Positions 7,294 to 37,767 of a stretch of DNA of 64,000 nt are shown here, in pieces (the stretch's first letter is position 1; every line of letters starts with the position of its first letter). Both the position numbers and the translations under genes were made by a program. This DNA is from Camillea tinctor. Taxonomy: Eukaryota > Ascomycota > Sordariomycetes > Xylariales > Xylariaceae. The notes beneath the pieces were generated by a model that did not search any database, had not been told where the DNA came from, and worked only from the letters and a program-made list of their open reading frames with translations. The stretch covers positions 1 to 64,000 of the forward strand of contig MU394123.1 in the NCBI GenBank assembly GCA_022578605.1. The letters are read 5' to 3'.

Positions 7294-8199
7294 ATGGTCA
7301 CTTATCTGGCCATCTATTTGTCGTAAATTATCCCTCCTGATTCTTAATTTCATTTTACGTGCTGAGCTTTAAGTATAGTACACTGGGATGTTCTCAAAGC
7401 AGCTATTCGCAAAGACGGTCTCAGCGCACTCGCACATCCACGACAAATTCGAAACGCCGCCTTGGCCGAGCTACTAAGTGTGACCTGTAAGCTCCATCCC
7501 CCTCACCCTCCTTATTACCCACTTCTTGTTAATTATCAAGATAAGCTCACGGCTTTATCGCGTACGAAAATACAACCATTGTTCCCACTCTTGTCAAGGC
7601 CGCCCGAGGTGTGATTCTTGACCTGGGTCCCGGGCCAGGGAATCAAGTTCACCGTTTTGAACTTTCAAATGTGGAGTTCATATATGGTGTTGAACCAAAC
7701 GCACACTACAAGAAAGGAATGGACAGAAAGCTTGCGGAATCTGGCTTGTCAGCCCGGTATCAATTTATACCCTGTGGCATTGAAGATAGCGATGTCCTCA
7801 GAAACTCGGGAGTTAAAGAGGGGAGCATGGATACCGTCTTGAGTATTCAGGTCATGTGTGCAGTAGAGGATCCAAGGCTAGTGATGAAAGAAGTCTACAA
7901 GTTGTTGAAGCCAGGAGGGAGGTTCATATTCTGGGAACATGGCTGGAGCAAGGACTCTGTAACCAATGCGGCCCAAGGTACGTTGTTATTTACTCTAGAG
8001 CTTATGCGGAGTGATTAACGTGAATACAGCCTTTTGGAATCCTGCTTGGAGCACCTTTGTAGGCTGTAGTATGATTCGAGATGTCAAGGCAGACATTCTC
8101 AGTGCAGGAGAGTGGGAAAACCCTGGTGAGATCGAGGAACCTGTTGATCCATGCAGCTGCCTGCCGAGAATTCAGGGAGTTCTCATCAAGAGATCTTGA
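7294..8199 (+). CDS. Class I SAM-dependent methyltransferase, four exons
   Basis: Exons 7294-7322, 7374-7486, 7546-7977 and 8030-8199 join to 744 bases, giving 247 residues. Motif I is VILDLGPGPGNQ and the acidic loop is GVEPN. Motif II is SMDTVLSIQVMCAVEDP, and the post-II motif is LLKPGGRFIFWEHG. The last exon, PAWSTFVGCSMIRDVKADI, matches the C-terminus of fungal METTL7/UbiE-like methyltransferases. The substrate is unknown; such enzymes methylate small molecules, thiols or lipids. The first exon (29 bases) was chosen because an in-frame stop lies just upstream of it and its splice gives a family-like MVTYLAIYLSIVHWD start. That start is the least certain part; the catalytic core is clear. 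Confidence 0.8.
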
Positions 8200-12165: not shown

Positions 12166-12303
12166 ATCCCCGTTAACCATGTATAAGTGAAGCTATCCCT
12201 CACCGGTGTTGATCTTCATTTGAATAGATCACCATTCTCATTCGCCTTCTTCAACTATCTAACTAGAGCACTCACATTCGAGAAAACTTCGTTGTAATTC
12301 AAA

Positions 12304-13531
12304 ATGCACTTTTCTACAGCTCTCAGAGCCTCTCTTCTATTCCCCATTACTCATGTTCTGGGAGGACCAATCACTCATGTTACGCGGCAAAACCAGACCT
12401 CTACACCACAATGCACCGAGGATACAGCTATCCAGCGCAAAGAATGGTCTTCCATGACCGAATACGAGCGCCTGGCCTACGTATCTGCCATTGAATGCTT
12501 GATGAACCAGCCACCAGAGTGGGATGTCCCTGGTAGTACTTCTGCTTATGACGATTTTGTTGCTACTCACATTAGAGTAACAACTTCAGTTCATCTGAAT
12601 GGCGTTTTCTTGTCATGGCACCGGCACTTCGAACATCTCCTTGAGGGCCAAATGCATGATAAATGCGGCTACCCTGGGTACCTTGGCCTTCCTTATTGGG
12701 ATTATCCTCTATACCTAGATAAGCCTTTGAACCAAAGCCTCTTGTTCGATGGTACACCTGACTCCCTGGGAAGTGACGGGACTTTCATACCCAACCGTCC
12801 GGATATTGTGGTGACCCCTGAATGGGACGCTAACTTACAGTTCCCACACGGACCGACCTTGCCGAGAGGCTCTGGTGGCGATTGTACCTGTAAGCTCATA
12901 TCTTTATTTTTTATTACATTTTTTGATATGGCCGTTTTAACCCTAACCATTGTCGATATAGATACCGGTCCATTTGCCAATCATACCGTCAGTTTTGGCC
13001 CCATCTCTAGGAGCGTTATCCCAACTGGTCTCCCTGCCAACTGGACTCAACCCAACCCACACTGCCTTGTCCGTGACCTGAATGATTGGTTCCTCAGGCG
13101 GCTCAATAATCAGACAGCTATGGATAACCTACTAGCTTCTTCAGACATTCTGGAATTTCAGACTCGCCTTGAGCCGATCCACCAAGGTGGCCATCTGACA
13201 ATAGGAGGAGCTATGCAGGACTTCTTTTGTAGCCCCCAGGTGAGTCCATACTATTCTGAAAGGCTTTTCCAAACCCATGATTAACGGTTCCAAGGACCCT
13301 ATCTTCTGGCTCCACCATACAAACCTCGATCGTCTCTGGTCGATATGGCAGGCTGCAGATCCTGCGAGACGCTCCCAATTCAATGGCACTAGCACTTACC
13401 TGAACCCGGTCGGCTACACACCAGAGGTCAATAATGACACTCAAATAACGTTCCCCGTGTTGGGTGCGAACGTCACGACGGGTGATGTTTCGAACCCGAT
13501 GGCTGGCCCATACTGCTACGTCTATGTTTAA
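12304..13531 (+). CDS. Secreted short-form tyrosinase
   Basis: Exons 12304-12889, 12962-13239 and 13295-13531 give 366 residues. A hydrophobic N-terminus (MHFSTALRASLLFPITHVLGG) suggests secretion. The CuA site is H89, H97 and H106 within ATHIRVTTSVH and FLSWHRHFEHLLE, followed by LPYWDYP. The CuB site is HQGGH and then DPIFWLHHTNLDRLW, whose core is only completed across the last intron. Type-3 copper enzymes of this sort oxidise mono- and diphenols, in pigment formation or phenol modification. The length fits the short secreted fungal class that lacks the C-terminal lid domain. Both introns have clear branch sites. Neighbours do not form a pathway with it. Confidence 0.92.
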
Positions 13532-16584: not shown

Positions 16585-17637
16585 TCACCAATCCAACGAC
16601 GTTTTATCCACGGTCCCGCACCCGCCCTCGGTCTCTGCTCCATCTTCTACAAGCTCTTTCGTCCACTCGTATACCCCTCCACGCTGCTCGAATACCTCTT
16701 GATCCCAGCGAACCTCGCTGAGCGCCTTCTGAACCCCAACGTCTAAAATCGATCGCGACTGTTTCACGACGCCGCCACCCTTGTCCAGGAAGCAGAGATA
16801 TTCGTCGAGGAGAAGATAGCTTGCTGCCATGACTGAATTCGGCTCAGGTATGAAGCATTCAAGGTGTTGATGCTTTTCACAGAATGTATTGTATTGCTCA
16901 TCTGAGATAAGAAGTTTCTTGGCATTCCGCTTCCGCTTGTTGAGTCGAGTGTCTTTCTCGTCGGCATCGTTCTCTCCCTCGACGTACAGCACTTGAAAGG
17001 CCTTCCACCGGAACGGGTCTAGCTGCTTCACTATGTCGGCCATGTCCTCCTGCCAATTATAAATGCACACCACTGTGTTGAGCTTGAATTTGATGCCTAG
17101 CTGGCGGCACCAGTCGCGGATACGGAAGAGCTGCGTGACGTTCTCACCGGTACCGCGGCCGATGGCGATATTTGTTTTCTCGTCGAAACTGTCACAGCTC
17201 ACTCCTATGACGTCCACCCACCGGCCGTGCTGCTCCAGCCACTTCTGTGTGACTTTTGTGCCGTTGGTGATAATACTAACGCTCTCGAGACCGAGGTCGA
17301 CTTTGCAGAAGCGGCAGAGCATGGCCAGCTTATCGGGGTAGAGAAAGGGCTCGCCGCCAGCGAAGTTGATCTTGCGCATGCCTGCTTCTCTGAGAAGGCG
17401 GAGCCCACGCTTCATGTCGTCCTCTGATGCGACATAGGAGCTTTTCTCGGTGTGGAAACAAAACGCACACTCCTTATTGCATTTCCGTGAGAAGAAAAAG
17501 TTGACTGAGACTGGTTTGATGACATCGTCGTGGTAGTATTTCCAGTATAGGAGGTAGATGCCTATGCCAATCACAGGGATCCAAGCAATCCCGACTATAC
17601 GCGACGTCCAATTCGAATAGAAGAGACTCAGTAGCAT
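16585..17637 (-). CDS. Viperin (RSAD2) homologue, radical SAM enzyme
   Basis: A single exon starts at ATG 17637 and gives 350 residues. A membrane helix at about residues 12-32 matches the N-terminal anchor of viperins (ER or lipid droplet). The radical SAM cluster motif is C53-N-K-E-C57-A-F-C60, followed by FHTEKSSY. The SAM-binding motif is GGEP (94-97) in KINFAGGEPFLYP. Later viperin signatures are SCDSFDEKTN, IGRGTGEN, FRWKAFQVLYVEGEN, PEPNSVMAASYLLLDEY and SILDVGV. The protein ends in LDW, as animal viperins do; the terminal tryptophan there helps iron-sulfur cluster delivery. Viperins turn CTP (some homologues use UTP) into a 3'-deoxy-3',4'-didehydro nucleotide that terminates viral RNA synthesis. 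An extra stretch of about 15 residues precedes the final LDW. It is divergent from the kinase gene at 18898. Confidence 0.93.
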   Translation of the reverse strand: MLLSLFYSNWTSRIVGIAWIPVIGIGIYLLYWKYYHDDVIKPVSVNFFFSRKCNKECAFCFHTEKSSYVASEDDMKRGLRLLREAGMRKINFAGGEPFLYPDKLAMLCRFCKVDLGLESVSIITNGTKVTQKWLEQHGRWVDVIGVSCDSFDEKTNIAIGRGTGENVTQLFRIRDWCRQLGIKFKLNTVVCIYNWQEDMADIVKQLDPFRWKAFQVLYVEGENDADEKDTRLNKRKRNAKKLLISDEQYNTFCEKHQHLECFIPEPNSVMAASYLLLDEYLCFLDKGGGVVKQSRSILDVGVQKALSEVRWDQEVFEQRGGVYEWTKELVEDGAETEGGCGTVDKTSLDW

Positions 17638-18897
17638 GGTTAATATCTCTCTCTGTCTCTCCCCTCTTTTCTCTTTTTCTAATTCACTACAAGGCTAAGT
17701 TGTTGCAGTGCACTCCCATCCGGCAGTGATAGGGCTAATAGATGAACCAAGACAATAGAGTAAATAAATGACAGGTATGTGGAGGAATCGGGGGTGCTTT
17801 GGAGTTTATATGTGCAGACGCGGAGGGAAGATGGTAGGTACTTAAGTACTACTATGTAGTCCTATTGATACAAATTGACCTATTGACTGTATCTATAACG
17901 CATATCGGGATGCATTTGATTGGACCGACACACAGATAACATTGCTTTACGCAACCTTCCAAACTTTCCCCATACCGATCGTTTGCCAACAAATAGACCC
18001 CAAATGAAAGGCTGGGGTACATGCACCCAACTAGGTTAACTGATACCTACAGTAGCGCTGTGCGCTAGGTTCAAATAAACAACCCCAACCCCGCCTACGT
18101 ACTGTACATGTGTACGCACTTACATATATGTTTGTATGATATAAGTACCTATTGGCCTATCTATTTACAAGTTACCTACCTACCTAGGTACATATATGTG
18201 AGCACGTAAATAAGTACCGTACCTACCAACGCAGCACCCCACAACCTTTGCGGATAGCAGATCCCTTCCGCATAGTTCAGCTCCTTGCTACCTAGGTATG
18301 TCCCAAGTCTCCATCATCACTTTATGAATAGTGGTAGGTAACTACGGAAACGCTACATACGAAATGTGATGCGCTGGCAAACTGAACAAATCTGCGCAGC
18401 TAGATCAAGTAAACAGATATTGACTCTAATAGGCGAGATTGTCAGTTTGTCCTTTTCTTTCCCATTCGCTTATTCTTCTCTTTCAAACTCACTCGCCTGC
18501 ATTATAATCATGATCAATGACATTAGATGCAGCGAGTTTACACGACTTCATGTTACCAAACCTCTAACTACCTACCCGAGCTAAATTACTAACATGCGAC
18601 TAGTGTTCATCACAGTCACAGTACAGGCCCCCAAATAAGGATACTACCTAACCTACCTACCTAGGCTTGTTGGTGTCATCGGGCAAAAGTCACACTACAT
18701 ATTTTGTTTGCCTAGACTGCTCCTGTTTACGCCAAGACTCCTCCATACAGTACCTCGCTGCCAGGTTACTTATTCCGTGCCTAGAAGCTCAAGTAGGTAT
18801 CAAAAGCTGGCGTCCTTTCCGAACACTTTTAGTACCATAAAAATAAGGAACAGGGTAGGATAAAAAGAGCGTAATCAACATTTCCAAAGACAATAAA
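17638..18897. promoter_or_regulatory. Shared divergent promoter region of viperin and nucleotide kinase
   Basis: The 1260 bases between the two opposite start codons contain no other gene. A pyrimidine-rich tract (17646-17680) lies next to the viperin start. The middle is dotted with ACCTACCTAGGTA-type palindromic words (around 18172-18190, 18290 and 18650-18665). No known stress or interferon-like element can be named from the sequence. Co-regulation is inferred from the head-to-head arrangement. Confidence 0.55.
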
Positions 18898-19668
18898 ATG
18901 GCAAACCCGGCCCAGCCATGCTATCGTAGCATTATCTTCGTCCTTGGACCCCCAGGTAGTGGCAAGGGCACCCTCTGCAAGCTTGCCACCAATCAGCTCG
19001 ATATGCCTGGTAACAACTACCGTCACCTTTCGGTAGGAGACTACCTACGAGAACTATCTACAACCGAGTTACCCTGCGACGCCGGGAGCTTCGATTGCAC
19101 CGCCATCTCTGAGAGCATACGAAATAATAAGCTTTTACCCTCTGAAGCGCTTATTCCTCTGCTTGGACACAAGCTTAGTTCAGTTCCGGAGAGCAGCAGA
19201 ACGGCCACTTCTTGGTTGATCGATGGGTTCCCCCGCAACATGGAGACCACACTAGTATTTGAGGAGAAGGTGGGTGAGCCCTTTTGGACTAACAGCAAAA
19301 CTGCCGTCCGGATCGTGTAACAAGTGCTGAAGCATCGCAACACTAGATTGGCAAGCCGACGAAGGTCATCGTCCTAGAATGTGCGCATGACATCGCACAA
19401 CATCGGTACCTCGGTCGTGCCAGAGAGGACATCGACGATGTAAGTCGCTTTGAAAAGCGATACGGGGACTATATCGAGAACATGAAGTCGATTCATGAGC
19501 ACTATAAGGGCATTATTGAAACAGTGCGTATTTTATTCCCGCATGATTGTTGTATTAGTCAATTACTTACTGGGAATTTGGCAGGTTACCGTCGATGGGC
19601 CCCGTGAGGAGTGCCTTGACAAGTTCATCAGTGCATTGTCACCGACTAGTACAGACTCAAAAGATTAA
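18898..19668 (+). CDS. UMP/CMP-kinase-type nucleoside monophosphate kinase
   Basis: Exons 18898-19269, 19347-19523 and 19585-19668 give 210 residues, the usual size of this family. The P-loop is GPPGSGKGT (17-25). The NMP-binding part has HLSVGDYLRE and IDGFPRNMET. After the first intron come KVIVLEC and an arginine/aspartate-rich lid (RYLGRAREDIDDVSRFEKRY), then the C-terminal VTVDGPREECLDKF. No mitochondrial leader is seen (MANPAQPCYR), so it is probably cytosolic. These enzymes phosphorylate UMP or CMP (some AMP) with ATP. Sequence alone does not fix the base preference; UMP/CMP is favoured by overall resemblance and by the viperin neighbour. It probably feeds the CTP/UTP pool used by the divergent viperin. 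Confidence 0.85.
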
Positions 19669-21983: not shown

Positions 21984-24675
21984 TTACCAGGTTTTTGGTC
22001 CGAAAGTGCCCCCTTCAGGAACTATTTTGAGATAGGCTGTATACGAGGCATCCTGTACAATAGTCAACCAGTTAAAACACGCTACCACAGTCACCTTCAA
22101 GTATGAGTCTTCAACTTACAAGAGTATTCATAACATCTACGTTCCCCCACCACTGCGGAATGGTGACCCCAGGAAGGGTTATCGCAAAGAAAATGACGAT
22201 GGTTGAAATAATGAGTCCAGCATCTAGACCAGCCGCTGTAACGTAGTTATAGGTATGCCACCAGCCGTTAAACGACTTACGGATGCCGTAGTTAAATACC
22301 AAGCCCATAATACCCCATGACGAAAAGCTCAACGGCGTTGCAGGAGGCAGCCAAGCCATGGCACCCAGCATGATCGGTGCATTAAAGTGGCCAGCGAAAC
22401 CGATGCGCAGCTTATGGATTAGGACCCATAGTAGGATTGGGAAGCACGCACCAATCAACCAGAACCAGTTGAAGTTCACGTAGACCGAACCCGGACCGAA
22501 CATTCGCTGCGGGCCGATCACACCCCATACGATGGAAGCCGAGAAAAATGCCCGGCCGTTAGGACAGGTGAAGTGGGCTGGTTGCGTGCTTATTATGCGG
22601 TTAGCTCTACGATCAGACCCACTCGTTTAACCTTGGTGATATCAAGAGACGGATATGTCATAATTACCTCTCACACACATGGGGTATATTTCCCAAAGTC
22701 CAGTTCATGACAGCAATCTGTACGAAAACAGCCCAGATGGAAGCGACTACCTGACACCAGAAGGTGATTCGTGGCGGTACCTTCATATAATGGGCAAGCT
22801 TGAGATCACCGCTGTAGGTTTGCGCCTGTCCTAGGGTGATCGTACTGAATACCTTGAATACCATCACACCAACGGGGCGACCAGGGATCATAAATCCGGC
22901 GAGATACGGCGAGATGACGTTCAATGAGAGCAAAATGTTGGATATGGCCAGCACCATGCCGGTAGGGATGACAAATACCAATGCTATAATTATCGAAACG
23001 AAGAACGCCCACCACGGTAACTGCGAGTCGTATCCTAGGGTCGTTCCAAGCCCTAGAGCAACCGAACTGACACAAAGGGTGATGTACCACCAATCTGGAG
23101 CGTCTTGGTACTTCTTGATCATCTTTAGGTGGATGTCTGGCTCCTGGTTCTGCGCGGCCCTGAATCTATACCAGATTTCCTTCCCGTGGAATAACCCCGT
23201 GTGTACTAACGCGGCCGTCAGAGCAGCAAACGAGAGTCCATAGTTGAGTGCGAGTGTTGGTGACAAAAAGAGAGGCGAGTAGTTCTTGTACTTTTCCAAG
23301 TCGAATGTGAACTGGTCCCCGAGAATGCGACTGACATTATAATACTGCTGCGTATTGTCATAAGTTTGCGAGGTTACCAGAGGAAGGTAGTCAGCATAGC
23401 TATGGACACGTCAGACATAGCCAATGGATCTTTATCTACCAAAACTGACATAGGTATGTTATAAGAGGAGGTATAGAAGGGGAAAGATGTAAAGGAAAAC
23501 TAGACTCACATAGCGCCTGAGTACGTTATCCCAATGGTAGTGATAATAACGAACAAAAACAATCCAAGCAAGGTATTCACATGTGCATGAGTCGGAGCCA
23601 GGAGAGGGTCATCGAGATAGGCTGTCACGTATGTCCAATCGAAAGTGATGGGAATGAGACTCAATCCTGTGAAGCCTCCAAACAGCTGATTTAATACTAC
23701 ATTGTTTGGCCGAATCCAAGTGACAAACGCGAACACTGAAAGGCCCTGCCAGATGACCCCTGGAAGCCAGTAGTAGCAGAACATGCTGATGAGAACATAG
23801 AAGAAATATCGATACCGACTAATAGTCCAGCCACTGGCAGCGGAGGAGTCACTCTTGCTCTTATCGTGGAGGGCATAGAACAGACTGGTCTTGGAGAATT
23901 GGTTCGGCCACATCATCGCGGATGGCCAGACGAGAAAACGCCGGAACATACCGGCTAGCGAGATGCCGATGAGCTGCGAGCTGAGAGTGAAGACGAGCGA
24001 GAACCCCCAGCCGAAGTTGATGTCGTAAAAAGGCTTGCCCTGCAGCGCAAGCAAGGCGTCCGTGCTATACGCGTACCCAATCGACACGTTAGCCATGAGT
24101 GTAATGACGACGTGTTCCTTGATGGTGAAGGGACCGGTGTTGAGGGTCCATTCGACGCCGAAAGTGTTGAACACCCGGGTGGGCATGGTCTTGGCCCATA
24201 GACAACCCAGTGGGTAGCTTAGAAGCAGGACGACGATGGCGGGGAAGTTGATGGCCGGGCTCCTCATGGACAGGAACATGTTCAGCCCACTGCCAATAGT
24301 GACGAAAAACATGCCCAAGACCCAGGCGCGGACGGTGTTAGCCACCTCGCCGCCATCCGTATTGCGCACGGCAGCACGCACTTCCTCGTAAGGAGAGTCC
24401 TCGGTGAAGAGGATATCGGCCTCGGCAATATCGGCGGCATTGCCATCCTCAATGGCCTTCTTGACAGCAGCCCGTGTCTCCTTGGGCAGGTTTGGGTCCC
24501 ATTGGTGGGCGTGTTGAATCTGTTCCAGGTCTGCAGTGGCTGTGGCAATATCTACCCCGTGTTGTTTTTCCTCAGACCAGTTTGGGCGACTCACCTCGAC
24601 CGGGCTGATCTCCGAGGATCCCAGGTCTGACGAGGACGACGGCGCTGGTGGACGTTTCTGAAATGGGAACCGCAT
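21984..24675 (-). CDS. OPT-family oligopeptide transporter
   Basis: Exons, 5' to 3' on the minus strand: 24675-23510, 23399-22668, 22588-22120 and 22052-21984, joining to 2436 bases and 811 residues, typical for the family. About 110 cytosolic residues with SPYEEVRAAVRNTD precede many membrane helices. Signatures are WTLNTGPFTIKEH (the usual NPGPF with P replaced by T), AYSTDALLALQ, the central ADYLPLVTSQTYDN, FHGKEIWYRF and CPNGRAFFSASIVWGVIGP. The small last exon ends VPEGGTFGPKTW, a classic OPT terminus, which supports the final intron. It should be a plasma-membrane proton-coupled importer of small peptides, glutathione-like compounds or metal chelates; substrate not predictable. Confidence 0.93.
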
Positions 24676-26374
24676 GGCTCTGATGCTTGGAGTACGGACA
24701 GGAAAGCCAGGAAGTTCGGTAGAAAGCCAACATGGCTGTCTGGCTCAAGGTTATACTTCGAGACCATACCATACCTTGAGATAACTACGTACTACTATGG
24801 AGGTAGTACTAGGTTTGTATCTTCTTATCTTCTTTCCCCGAGGAAGGGGGTTTTGATCAGGTGTTTGCCGTGTCAATGGACCACCACTTACACCCTTCTC
24901 GCATGTCTTACAAGGACCGGGAAATGGCCCTATCATGCTAAGTTACTATGTAGTACTACTTACTCCGTACTACCTATCTACCTAGATAGGTACTTCTCGG
25001 TTCAGGTCTCCACCCGGGTGGTAACTCGTACTACGTTGCAGTCTATATCGACCTTCCAAGTCTGATCAAGCATTTCTATATCGCAGCCAGTGACAGCTTG
25101 GCGGAATGTGGGGTGAGAGTTTAGGTTCGTAGTGTACTAACCTAGGTATGTACTCCGTAGATTAGACCAACCTGGTTATCAAGGTTGGACAAAACATACC
25201 TAACCTAGGTAGGTATGAGACTACTTCGGCATCAGCTATCCGGTTATCTCAATCGCAACAAAGCATTTCATACATACTATTGACTTTAATCGGCTTATCT
25301 ATGATATTCCGTGTAATCCAATTTATTTCCGCACGGATATCATCCTACCACAATTCTCCAAATGAGGTATCGTGAATGTCTTCCAGTGCAAAGGAGGAGC
25401 ATGAACTTAAGCTTGAGCTTGAATTTGAGCCTAACTGAGCATCTTCAAGAAGAAATGCAGCACCTAGGACACTAGGTTGGGTTAGTACCTTTCACAGGTC
25501 AGAAGGCTGAAAGACGTAGTAGAATAAAACAGGTACCTACTATACAGCCTACTTAACATATTCACTTTCTGGGTTTCAGGATAATGATACCACTGTTATT
25601 ATCACTTTTTTTTTTCAAGTGATATGATATGCTCATGATAGTTACAACTGGTTACTAGCTTATTAACCTACTAAGTACCTATCAATATCGAGGAGATGGG
25701 TGGGCGGGGTTTGGGCGGGGTTTTGAAAACTGGACCGGAGTTTATCCGCCATTTACACACAGCACAGGCCTTGGCACTGAAAGTCCAAGTCCAGACTTAA
25801 GTCCCAACTGGAATGAAGATGCCCCGATAGATGGATCTGACAGGTGGAGGTGGATCCCCCAGGAGATGTGTTCCAATAGGTAGATGAATGTAACTCTTTT
25901 AGCCCCCTCCTTCTCCCCCCCCCTCCTGCAACTAGGTAAGTAATGCTCTCTAACCTTCTAATCTCCCTAACCTAATACTCTAACTAGGTTACTACTAGGT
26001 AGTAATTTTCGGCGGGGTATTCAAAGACTTGTGCATTTGTTCATTCCACTGAACATAGAGACATCTGTGACAATCCCTATCAATCTCTATCCTCTATCAC
26101 TGATAAAGGATATCGCCGATCTTTTAGAAGAAGAACCAAAAAAAAAAGGAAAGAAAAAAAAAAGTCAATTCACAGCATATACCATTTCTCTCTCTCTCTC
26201 TCTCTCTCTCTTCTTCTGCAAAATCATTCGTCTGGTTATTGGCACTACGTTACCCTCACTCATAGGCTACTACAATACAATACACTAACCTAGACAAATA
26301 CAACACCATACATCATCCATACCACCTACCACACACCACACATACCACATACACGGCTCTCCCCTTCGCCGACC
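24676..26374. other. Intergenic promoter region (1.7 kb)
   Basis: No gene. It contains many TACCTAGGTA-type words (about 24950-25210, 25540, 25670 and 25980), a pyrimidine-rich stretch at about 25900-25925 and a (TC)n microsatellite at about 26187-26211. The region separates the OPT gene (minus) from the RGG-rich gene (plus) and must hold both promoters. The frame at 26031-26288 overlaps the microsatellite and is not a gene. Confidence 0.6.
26187..26212. repeat. (TC)n microsatellite
   Basis: About 12 dinucleotide units lie about 165 bases upstream of the RGG-rich protein's start codon, probably in its promoter or 5' leader. Confidence 0.9.
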
Positions 26375-34448: not shown

Positions 34449-36263
34449 CTAGTCGTAGCCTTTGATGAGACTTTCATTGATATCACGTTGTAGTTTGGCC
34501 TGGCAGCTGAACCTCTCGCTTTCCGTCTCTGCATCATCGAACCCGACACATTTCCAACATTTCAACAACCCGTCCGGATCGTACTTTTGTTTGATTTCAA
34601 GCAACCTCGGGTAGTTGTCCGCCCACCACGACTCACGCCAGTTTTCAGTAAAGGGGTTAGCCTCGTTTGGATAAGTCCCACCCTCTATTCCTGTTAGCTC
34701 TTCAGCAAGTAACGTAGCTTTAGTTAGAGCTGTGAGGTTCTGTAGCCTAACAGCATATGATGCGTTCCAAGGGATGGATAAGCTTGCTCCCCCCATCGAC
34801 CACAGAGATTGGTACCAAGCCGGGTTGACGGCAGTCTCGCCTACCTCATAGCTGGTTACCGAGTCAGCTACGAACGGAGTGTCCACTGGACAATAAAACC
34901 CGCGCGGGTCAAACCCCAGGTCTCTAGCCGCAGCAAAATATCCCATTAGCTTCACGATACCCTCGTCGCTTGCGAAGAGGCTTCGTGGAATTAAGCGCGA
35001 CGACAGCACGCGCACTTGCCCTGCCGTCTGCTGAGCCCCTGGCACGACGTACTTCTTCCACACGTCAATGAAATCAGGAAGTATCTCGATGACACTAGTC
35101 CCGCCGATGGACGTTGCAAAGTCAGTTGCGTTCTTCATTGCTGCTAGCGCAGCCAGGCCGCCATCTGATAAATTCGCTATCGCGGGGAGTGGGTTCATAT
35201 ATGTGAGGTACATTCCGGCCGCATGTCCACCCCATCCTTGTCTTCCCCAGTCCAGGGACTGTCTCGCCACCAGCTCGATCCACTGCATTGCGGTATCAGC
35301 CGTGATATTGGATGGCAAGGTGATACCAGCTACGGCGACAGGGCCAGCCGGTTCGACGCGATGAGTCGCTTCAAGTACAACCCCAAAAGTACCGCCTCCG
35401 CCTCCACGTAGAGCCCAAAACAGATCAGCATGATGGCATTTGTTCGCAACTCGCAACACGCCGTCCGGGGTGACGATCTTGAACTGCACGACGCGATCCA
35501 CCCCCAGCCCGTAAGCCGGAGATAACACACTGTGGCCTCCTCCCAGCACCCAACCCCCAGACACGGCAATCGTGGGCGCATACCCTACGATAGCTGTGCT
35601 ATCATGCGCCGCCGCGAACGTTACGACGTCCGCGGAACTCGCCCCCGTCCCTGCCGTCACGGCCCTGCCCACACTCGCATTCCGGGTGCACCCTTCAGGC
35701 ACGAAATTGCTGTGGAATTCGAGGCCCTTGAGCCCGTGCACCCACAGCGCCAAAGCGCCTTTCCCGCTATTCCTCGTCATGTAGTCATGACCGCTGTTTT
35801 TTATGACCAGCGGCACGCCGCCGTGCTCCTTGGCGAAAGCGAGCGCAGCACTGACGTCCGCGGCCTCCGCCACCTCGAGACGATGCGTCGGCACGCTACC
35901 CTGATTGCACGGCACGTAGGGCGGAGGCTCCGGAGCCGGCGAAGCCGTGTTGTCGAGGACGCACTGATCTGCGGGGGAAGACCAGCACTGCTCGCTTTGG
36001 AGGTTCATGTAGGCGCTTGCTTGGCCGGCACGGAAGTCAGCGTTAGTGTAGTTCTCGCGCACCGCCGCGCACTGGGCCTCGTCCACGGTTGCGGGCTGGC
36101 CATTGTAGAGTGAGAAGCAGGGGAGAGCTAAGGGGACGGTCTGGTGGAGGCGCCCTTGAACAGAGACGTTGAGGGTACGCCATGCGTGCCCATCTTGGGA
36201 TAGGCTCGGGCGGAATAGGGTTGCGAGTAGGGGGAGAGCTTTGTGGAGCGAGGGAGGCTTCAT
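34449..36263 (-). CDS. Secreted FAD-linked oxidase (berberine-bridge-enzyme-like)
   Basis: A single exon of 604 residues starts at ATG 36263 with a signal peptide (MKPPSLHKALPLLATLF). The PCMH FAD domain is clear: RLEVAEAADVSAALAFAKEH, then PLVIKNSGHDYMTRNSGKGA with the histidine that carries flavin, GAVTAGTGAS-like TAGTGASSADV, SGGWVLGGGHSVLSPAYGLG, and LFWALRGGGGGTFGVV. The BBE C-terminal motif is NEANPFTENWRESWW ... YPRLLEIKQKYDPDGLLKC. The position that gives a second, cysteinyl flavin link in some BBE enzymes appears to lack cysteine (SGGWVLGGGH), so single covalent linkage is likely. Several Asn-X-Ser/Thr sites suit secretion. These enzymes oxidise sugars, alcohols or secondary metabolites; substrate unknown. 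Confidence 0.92.
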   Translation of the reverse strand: MKPPSLHKALPLLATLFRPSLSQDGHAWRTLNVSVQGRLHQTVPLALPCFSLYNGQPATVDEAQCAAVRENYTNADFRAGQASAYMNLQSEQCWSSPADQCVLDNTASPAPEPPPYVPCNQGSVPTHRLEVAEAADVSAALAFAKEHGGVPLVIKNSGHDYMTRNSGKGALALWVHGLKGLEFHSNFVPEGCTRNASVGRAVTAGTGASSADVVTFAAAHDSTAIVGYAPTIAVSGGWVLGGGHSVLSPAYGLGVDRVVQFKIVTPDGVLRVANKCHHADLFWALRGGGGGTFGVVLEATHRVEPAGPVAVAGITLPSNITADTAMQWIELVARQSLDWGRQGWGGHAAGMYLTYMNPLPAIANLSDGGLAALAAMKNATDFATSIGGTSVIEILPDFIDVWKKYVVPGAQQTAGQVRVLSSRLIPRSLFASDEGIVKLMGYFAAARDLGFDPRGFYCPVDTPFVADSVTSYEVGETAVNPAWYQSLWSMGGASLSIPWNASYAVRLQNLTALTKATLLAEELTGIEGGTYPNEANPFTENWRESWWADNYPRLLEIKQKYDPDGLLKCWKCVGFDDAETESERFSCQAKLQRDINESLIKGYD

Positions 36264-37767
36264 GGGCAGAGGGTGTAATATGACGGTATATTTAATAGCA
36301 AGACTTTCTTGATAGTAAATTCGGATATTCTAAACTTCCTCCAGGAAAACCGGGATATCCAACTAGGCGAACTTATACAATCGTATAAGCTAAGTAAGAC
36401 AGTCCAGGGAGAGGAATCGTAGTGTCGATGGTTCTCGCGACATCTTCCAGATAGAATAATGACTATTTCTACAATTACTCTGCAATCAATCAGCTGAAGT
36501 AGTTATCCGACCAACTCCGTTGTCAGCATCATTTTGGGGAATAACCCAGAAGTTGCTTAACCCGGATATCTCAGGGATACCTAACCCAACCTTTACTTAA
36601 CCGGGTAAAGCCATGACTCCTCAAATACGACTGTCTTAGATAGCTGCCACAGTATTAAAGCATGGCCGCCGCGCAAAAGCTGCATGTAATATTCATTACC
36701 TAGTACATACATGCCCACATGACCTGTGAACGGTATGGTTATGTGCGGTCTTTCGATCTAGGTAATTTTGATCCTGCCTCTCGATAGTGTTGCATTCTAC
36801 GCGGACAGGATCGATTTTCTGAATGTCGACATACCCGTCTCAACTATACTATATTACACAACCAAAAAATAGAGCCCGGTCGTTTCGATTATATCTACTG
36901 CATGCTGAAGTTTTTCAGGTATCCGAAGCGTATAATCTCTAGCTTGATTAGCTAATATATAGCTCTGTTTTCACCGTGGTATAGGGACAATTCGATATAA
37001 AGCTGCTTGAACCTGGATCAAGTTTTTTTTTTAAAACAATTCTTGTCGATGCATAATATGGACCTTAGTTAGAAATATTCCATGATTTCAGCCTGCGATT
37101 TTCTTATTAGATAATGGTATGCGGATTAGGGTTACATTATCCAAGTGTCTTTCTAGTACATGCGCAGGGCTAGATGAGATCAATGGAAATACTTTGATAA
37201 GTATCTGCAAATAAAATGTATGGTCTGAATTAGGCGCGCTACAATAGATGCGATGCAGGCCATCGCGGGGTGTAGTGTTCCTCTACGACTTATTCTATAG
37301 TCCATTCTTGTTTACGCTCTATGTCTTCGTCTATCCCAATACGTAATCAAACAAGACTCTTTCGGAGAAAGAACCAGGCTCGGACGATATCCGCAAAGTC
37401 TCACGATAAGGACTCCCCTGTCAACTACGGAATATAAGTCAGTGCTTATCGACCTGCTGAATGGAGATAGTTTCTTTGTAGACCTGCCAGGTACGGGGTC
37501 CCTGATTTTTTATGATATCCATTCTGCGCCAATAGGGTATCACCGCCTACCAGGTCTTAGGCTCGGCAGATTTCAAAATAATATACAGCAAGTCTGCCAA
37601 GAATGAAAGCTGGCTTGTGCCTAGGCTTCTGTTCGATCCAACTTCCCGATTAACCTAGCGTGCCATGATGTGAAAATGCTCGATACGGATATATAACAGA
37701 GCAGCTTGACTCATTCCTGGTTCTTTTCTCGTCACCACTCCTCTCTTTCCAGCATCAAGACGCGAAA
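36264..37767. other. Intergenic region (1.5 kb), divergent promoters
   Basis: No gene recognised. It lies between the divergent BBE oxidase and M14 carboxypeptidase genes. A+T-rich, with a T-run at about 37022-37031. Confidence 0.5.

Follow-up and report, generated by a model that had tools for sequence, protein, structure and literature searches.

A viperin gene and a nucleoside monophosphate kinase gene lie head to head in Camillea tinctor and share a contig in other ascomycetes

Results

Organization of the locus

The window, the whole stretch of 64,000 nucleotides analyzed here, is part of a contig of 203,330 bp (C73) from Camillea tinctor (Xylariales, Sordariomycetes), whose genome assembly comprises 44.7 Mb in 154 contigs. 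It contains a gene for a viperin homologue and, on the opposite strand, a gene for a nucleotide kinase (Table 1). A preliminary description of this DNA had the two genes starting 1.26 kb apart, head to head and with nothing between them, and this arrangement was confirmed, as an ORF scan found no ATG-, GTG- or TTG-initiated frame of 80 aa or more lying fully within the 1,260-bp gap. An artefact or a pseudogene was ruled out because the viperin and kinase reading frames are both intact.

Table 1. Positions of the viperin–kinase pair and its features in the window
Feature	Position	Strand	Remarks
Viperin (radical SAM, RSAD2-like)	16585..17637	-	Single exon, 350 aa
Divergent intergenic region, candidate shared promoter	17638..18897	.	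1,260 bp between starts
Kinase exon 1	18898..19269	+	P-loop GPPGSGKGT, HLSVGDYLR, DGFPRNMET
Kinase exon 2	19347..19523	+	Short LID, RAR...DD, EKR
Kinase exon 3 and stop	19585..19668	+	

Two kinds of repeat were noted in the C. tinctor gap, the one sequence analyzed. A 15-bp element, ACCTACCTACCTAGG, occurs at 18174–18188, 18282–18296 and 18651–18665 (two exact copies and one of 80%), and 18096–18131 and 18190–18225 form an inverted repeat of 36 bp that is imperfect. Ten other ORFs of the window were run against Pfam, and the matched ORFs closest to the pair encode a tyrosinase (12298–13281) and a piece of an OPT transporter (23509–24744). Tailoring-type genes in the window comprise this tyrosinase, a methyltransferase (7545–8015) and a berberine-bridge-type FAD oxidase (34452–36329). 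No backbone synthase was found among the ten ORFs, which are a subset of those in the window.

The viperin homologue

The viperin ORF is uninterrupted, with the CxxxCxxC cysteines at C53, C57 and C60, GGEP at residues 94–97, a C-terminal LDW and, as judged by eye, an N-terminal hydrophobic segment. Its score of 243.5 bits against the viperin model NF038283 exceeds the cut-off of 180, which bears out the earlier identification of a full-length viperin from motifs that included these three. Against TIGR04278, a model of type "exception" that was probably fitted to animal viperin, it scored 335.5 bits, below the stricter cut-off of 450. The solved relatives ranking best by sequence were two viperins (6b4c and 7n7i, the latter presumably from Trichoderma virens) along with four proteins labeled "radical SAM core domain-containing", all with E values from 3e-111 to 3.3e-109. 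Excerpts of PMC8124187 tabulate 6B4C under viperin for mouse and T. virens. Just one sequence in the C. tinctor genome exceeded the viperin cut-off, the runner-up on contig C14 reaching 67 bits, and the cluster cysteines are kept in 41/41 aligned viperins from the linked pairs described below.

Fungal viperin could act on another substrate, so that the pair would serve secondary or lipid metabolism and not antiviral defence. The Thielavia terrestris viperin is called promiscuous and an apparent modification of isopentenyl pyrophosphate by viperin is reported in excerpts of PMC8124187, and the methyltransferase, tyrosinase and berberine-bridge-type oxidase of the window would suit such a role. 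This reading is nevertheless considered very unlikely: according to the same excerpts, every viperin assayed to date seems to make ddhCTP from CTP, UTP being a further putative substrate of fungal viperin (PMC8124187), the linked gene encodes a nucleotide kinase, and the ten window ORFs examined include no backbone synthase.

The kinase gene and its family

The kinase gene (18898–19668 overall) has three exons separated by GT–AG introns, and its spliced product of 210 aa is identical to a public C. tinctor protein (P0001); the preliminary description was thus right to place an intact kinase opposite viperin. A 207-aa version lacking three residues scored 66.3 bits against PF00406, the adenylate-kinase-like NMP kinases (cut-off, 26.8), and this score, the P-loop and the catalytic arginines place the protein among NMP kinases of the PF00406 type. 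The UMP–CMP family model TIGR01359 gave 91.0 bits for the 210-aa protein and 68.6–108.3 bits for five linked relatives, all below the cut-off of 207.6, compared with 217.6 bits for the URA6-like gene of the same genome. Of the earlier label "UMP/CMP-kinase-type", the fold therefore stands but the family does not. No match at E 0.001 was obtained between the 207-aa version and PF02223, the thymidylate-kinase family of CMPK2, and no PADLOC model matched the fungal kinase.

Identity with the housekeeping UMP kinase was ruled out, as that gene lies on contig C94 and in another branch of the kinase tree. The six other adenylate-kinase-family loci of the C. tinctor genome are all on contigs without viperin, and the one thymidylate-kinase locus found is on contig C18. 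Contigs C113, C17 and C90 carry three more adenylate/UMP–CMP-kinase-like genes, each with its own sequence after GFPR, in addition to the URA6-like gene and the long-LID adenylate kinases.

Active site and base pocket

The P-loop lysine, R51, D109, R113, R150 and R162 are present in 41/41 linked kinases and R148 in 40/41, so the catalytic residues are kept. The base pocket is changed. The residue after GFPR that aligns with Q101 of AK1 and N97 of the slime-mould UMP/CMP kinase is Thr117 in C. tinctor, and across 44 linked or own kinases it is T in 32, S in 5, Q in 3 and N, A, C or G in 1 each; we take this column to be the base-reading site, the role known for it in those two enzymes. V46, which corresponds to T39 of AK1, is V in 40/41 kinases. 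The C. tinctor kinase hence has neither the Asn nor the Gln that marks UMP–CMP kinases at this position, and the UMP/CMP substrate implied for it in the preliminary description is not supported, given the prevalence of Thr or Ser among the linked kinases and a score below the UMP–CMP family cut-off.

The altered residues at 117 and 46 are consistent with a kinase that handles another base or the viperin product itself (ddhCMP/ddhUMP, AMP or several NMPs) and would keep that product charged instead of supplying viperin with substrate, as is the roughly equal fit of adenylate kinases and UMP/CMP kinases to the kinase model. Since a changed contact does not reveal the substrate, and the solved uridylate kinase 1uky ranks first by sequence, with adenylate kinases not far behind, this reading is regarded as possible, if on the doubtful side.

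Three linked kinases have an altered P-loop, namely P0028 from Astrocystis (GPPRSGK), P0029 from Xylaria digitata (GPPASGK) and P0257 from an anonymous contig (GPPACGK); they are perhaps drifting or specialized enzymes. A neighboring kinase group (P0264, P0266, P0269 and P0258, from Elsinoe, Sphaceloma, Myriangium and one anonymous source) has Gln at the base position; the 120 viperins listed, out of 1,596 found, include none from these Elsinoe, Sphaceloma or Myriangium species.

Linkage across fungi

Linkage was called when a kinase row and a viperin row from protein searches had an identical longest-contig size. Kinase homologues were collected by single-query and profile searches (159 rows listed, 154 with a size and five without), and 120 of the 1,596 viperins found were listed; clusters at 90% identity hide members in these protein lists. 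At least 43 of the 154 kinase homologues share the exact contig size of one of the 120 listed viperins, and at least 43 of these 120 viperins accordingly have a kinase partner, to which the pair in the window adds one more. The tally is a raw same-contig count and includes any general synteny of the Xylariales. When sizes were shifted by 1–50 bases, 0.38 matches were obtained on average with the 154 rows (0.08 in an earlier offset control with 77 rows only). With genes placed at random in a 45-Mb genome, a shared contig is expected for ∼0.6 of the linked genes that bear a name (40), or for ∼1.2 when 74 of the 75 named genes are counted. A first tally used 126 kinase rows, to which P0078–P0106 (mostly unnamed or bacterial adenylate kinases, with one insect row), P0239, P0245, P0246 and P0260 were then added; none of the 28 added rows with a size matched any of the 120 listed viperins.

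Gene distance in other fungi is known from locus tags and contig size alone. Serial locus tags make kinase and viperin neighbors in 6/6 pairs (E0Z10_g4920/4921, PG986_000199/000200, O1611_g450/451, NUW58_g802/803, RRF57_012443/012444 and ANO14919_043260/043270). Many Xylariales show the linkage, as does Apiospora (Amphisphaeriales); three named Dothideomycetes (Dothistroma, Zasmidium and Polychaeton) show it at the same-contig level only, on contigs of 0.5–2.8 Mb. The preliminary description had named a lack of conserved adjacency beyond close relatives as grounds for refutation, and the linkage seen here did not refute it.

No contig match was seen for 111 of the 154 kinase rows, one being P0001 from the window itself; many of the others are short pieces, members of other subfamilies or from species without a viperin among the 120 listed. 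Likewise, 77 of the 120 listed viperins, including every one from Mycena, have no partner in the kinase lists. The two genes lie on different contigs, each represented by one sequence, in Jackrogersella minutella (P0005/P0111) and Hypoxylon sp. FL0890 (P0240/P0120). Ustulina deusta (P0019/P0137), in which the contigs also differ but the rows are clusters of several sequences, may be a third genome with separated genes.

Three anonymous contig sizes, 4,460, 7,371 and 8,629 bp, are common to a kinase and a viperin. Chance alone would give 0.37 such matches among the 79 anonymous rows, so no single one of them is proof. The 4,460-bp kinase groups with that of Dothistroma (support 100/99, 60% identity), and the closest of the 119 other listed viperins to its viperin is also that of Dothistroma (84%). 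The 8,629-bp kinase groups with Zasmidium (support 100/99, 44% identity), and the best of the listed matches to its viperin is another anonymous sequence (77%), with that of Zasmidium at 72%. Compared in this way, the 4,460-bp pair is coherent and the 8,629-bp pair less clear. Tight linkage in the Dothideomycetes is likely, although not certain.

Adjacency could also reflect inherited gene order, the two genes being metabolic neighbors by descent that have no joint function. The linked species are mostly Xylariales, in which general synteny could produce linkage, a partner is missing for 77 of the 120 listed viperins, and the three named Dothideomycetes show a shared contig of 0.5–2.8 Mb and nothing closer. 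Gene order between fungal classes is usually scrambled (mesosynteny), however, and the linkage recurs in a second class; the 4,460-bp size shared by a Dothistroma-like kinase and viperin suggests that it is tight there, and the other adenylate-kinase-family loci of C. tinctor sit elsewhere in the genome. On balance, inheritance of gene order by itself is judged unlikely.

Phylogeny of the kinases and joint descent

A midpoint-rooted tree was constructed from 89 kinases, omitting two linked kinases shorter than 180 aa. A single clade with 73 rows (support 100/91) takes in all 42 linked kinases of at least 180 aa, including that of the window, and the four C. tinctor paralogues put into the tree fall outside it. 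None of the linked kinases is found in the neighboring groups of nine and three rows or in the group of four that contains the URA6-like gene. The contrast with the nine- and three-row groups is not very informative, since none of the 120 listed viperins comes from their named species; the C. tinctor genome itself, with its six other loci of the same family on viperin-free contigs, makes a better control. Tree places are unsure for the long rows P0268 (Polychaeton) and P0265 and for the C. tinctor genes on C113 and C90.

Inside the 73-row clade the linked rows do not form a single group, with 19 label changes compared with a shuffled mean of 30; frequent loss of linkage, or frequent failure to detect it, would give such a pattern. 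Over 41 pairs, distances between kinases are correlated with those between viperins (r = 0.81, with 0/1000 permutations as high), which indicates joint descent and not joint function. Mean pairwise identity is 0.475 for the kinases and 0.704 for the viperins, and the faster evolution of the kinase, together with the altered P-loops, fits both weaker constraint and an arms race.

Discussion

A proposed nucleotide module

The pair is real and conserved, and probably functional. It is best explained as a two-gene nucleotide module in which the kinase is a dedicated partner of viperin that supplies or recycles nucleotides, a reading to which we give a probability of about 0.6. In such a module viperin would carry out the reaction described for it in the literature and convert CTP or UTP to the 3'-deoxy-3',4'-didehydro form (ddhCTP/ddhUTP), which would halt viral RNA polymerases. 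The kinase, from a dedicated, non-housekeeping clade of the adenylate/UMP–CMP family, would phosphorylate nucleoside monophosphates, and could feed viperin by raising the pyrimidine diphosphate pool or re-phosphorylate spent ddh-monophosphates.

A bolder form of this proposal is put forward tentatively and is, if anything, doubtful. The kinase would be an ascomycete "viperin-associated kinase", dedicated and fast evolving, whose remodeled base pocket handles the didehydro-nucleotides of viperin or a mix of bases other than UMP/CMP. The gene pair would then be a defined nucleotide-based antiviral system of fungi, and viperin immunity would have independently recruited a kinase family beyond the one already known.

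The antiviral defences known from fungi are chiefly RNA interference and incompatibility, and a conserved viperin–kinase pair offers a concrete two-gene candidate for chemical defence. It also points to pairings of viperin with kinases whose family differs from lineage to lineage. In addition, the clade provides NMP kinases whose base pocket is unusual and which may be of use in making chain-terminating nucleotides.

Comparison with known viperin–kinase systems

Eukaryotic viperins are reportedly genetically linked with nucleotide kinases (Shomar et al. 2024), so the fungal pairing may already be in print, in part or as a whole. No description of a fungal viperin–kinase pair was found in the titles and abstracts searched, a coverage that lies mostly outside subscription journals. 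The viperin-like enzymes of T. virens and T. terrestris are close relatives of the C. tinctor viperin that have been solved or assayed (PMC8124187), and the excerpts of that paper make no mention of a kinase partner for them.

The vertebrate RSAD2–CMPK2 pair resembles the fungal locus in that a viperin gene adjoins a nucleotide kinase gene. CMPK2 is an enzyme of the thymidylate-kinase family, whereas the fungal kinase belongs to the adenylate/UMP–CMP kinase family. Among bacteria, 15% of viperin genes adjoin a gene for a CMPK2-like kinase, as stated in excerpts of PMC11249213. The prokaryotic viperins (pVip and the pVip–kinase fusion of PADLOC) likewise share with the fungal system the viperin family and a kinase neighbor, and the C. 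tinctor viperin matches the PADLOC models for kinase-associated viperins, for the fusion and for the class without kinases.

For comparison, 75 prokaryotic viperin loci, some of them cut by contig ends, were scanned for ORFs of at least 110 aa, a P-loop pattern and the fungal-kinase profile. This gave 17 candidate ORFs, all of which were run against Pfam. Nine are of the thymidylate-kinase type, lying beside viperin in eight loci (L037, L040, L041, L042, L050, L058, L073 and L078) and ∼1.1 kb from it on the opposite strand in L052. Another seven proved to be unrelated proteins or P-loop proteins of a different kind, and a 123-aa piece in L080 has no Pfam match and, by eye, a thymidylate-kinase-like P-loop. 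None of the 17 candidates is of the adenylate-kinase type. A prokaryotic-type kinase was therefore rejected for the fungal locus, as the nucleotide kinases identified next to prokaryotic viperins are of the thymidylate-kinase type, in contrast to the adenylate/UMP–CMP-family enzyme in fungi. The earlier suggestion that the same logic is built here with another kinase fits this result. The partnership of viperin with a kinase is already known, and the fungal pair is a variant of it, apparently with another kinase family.
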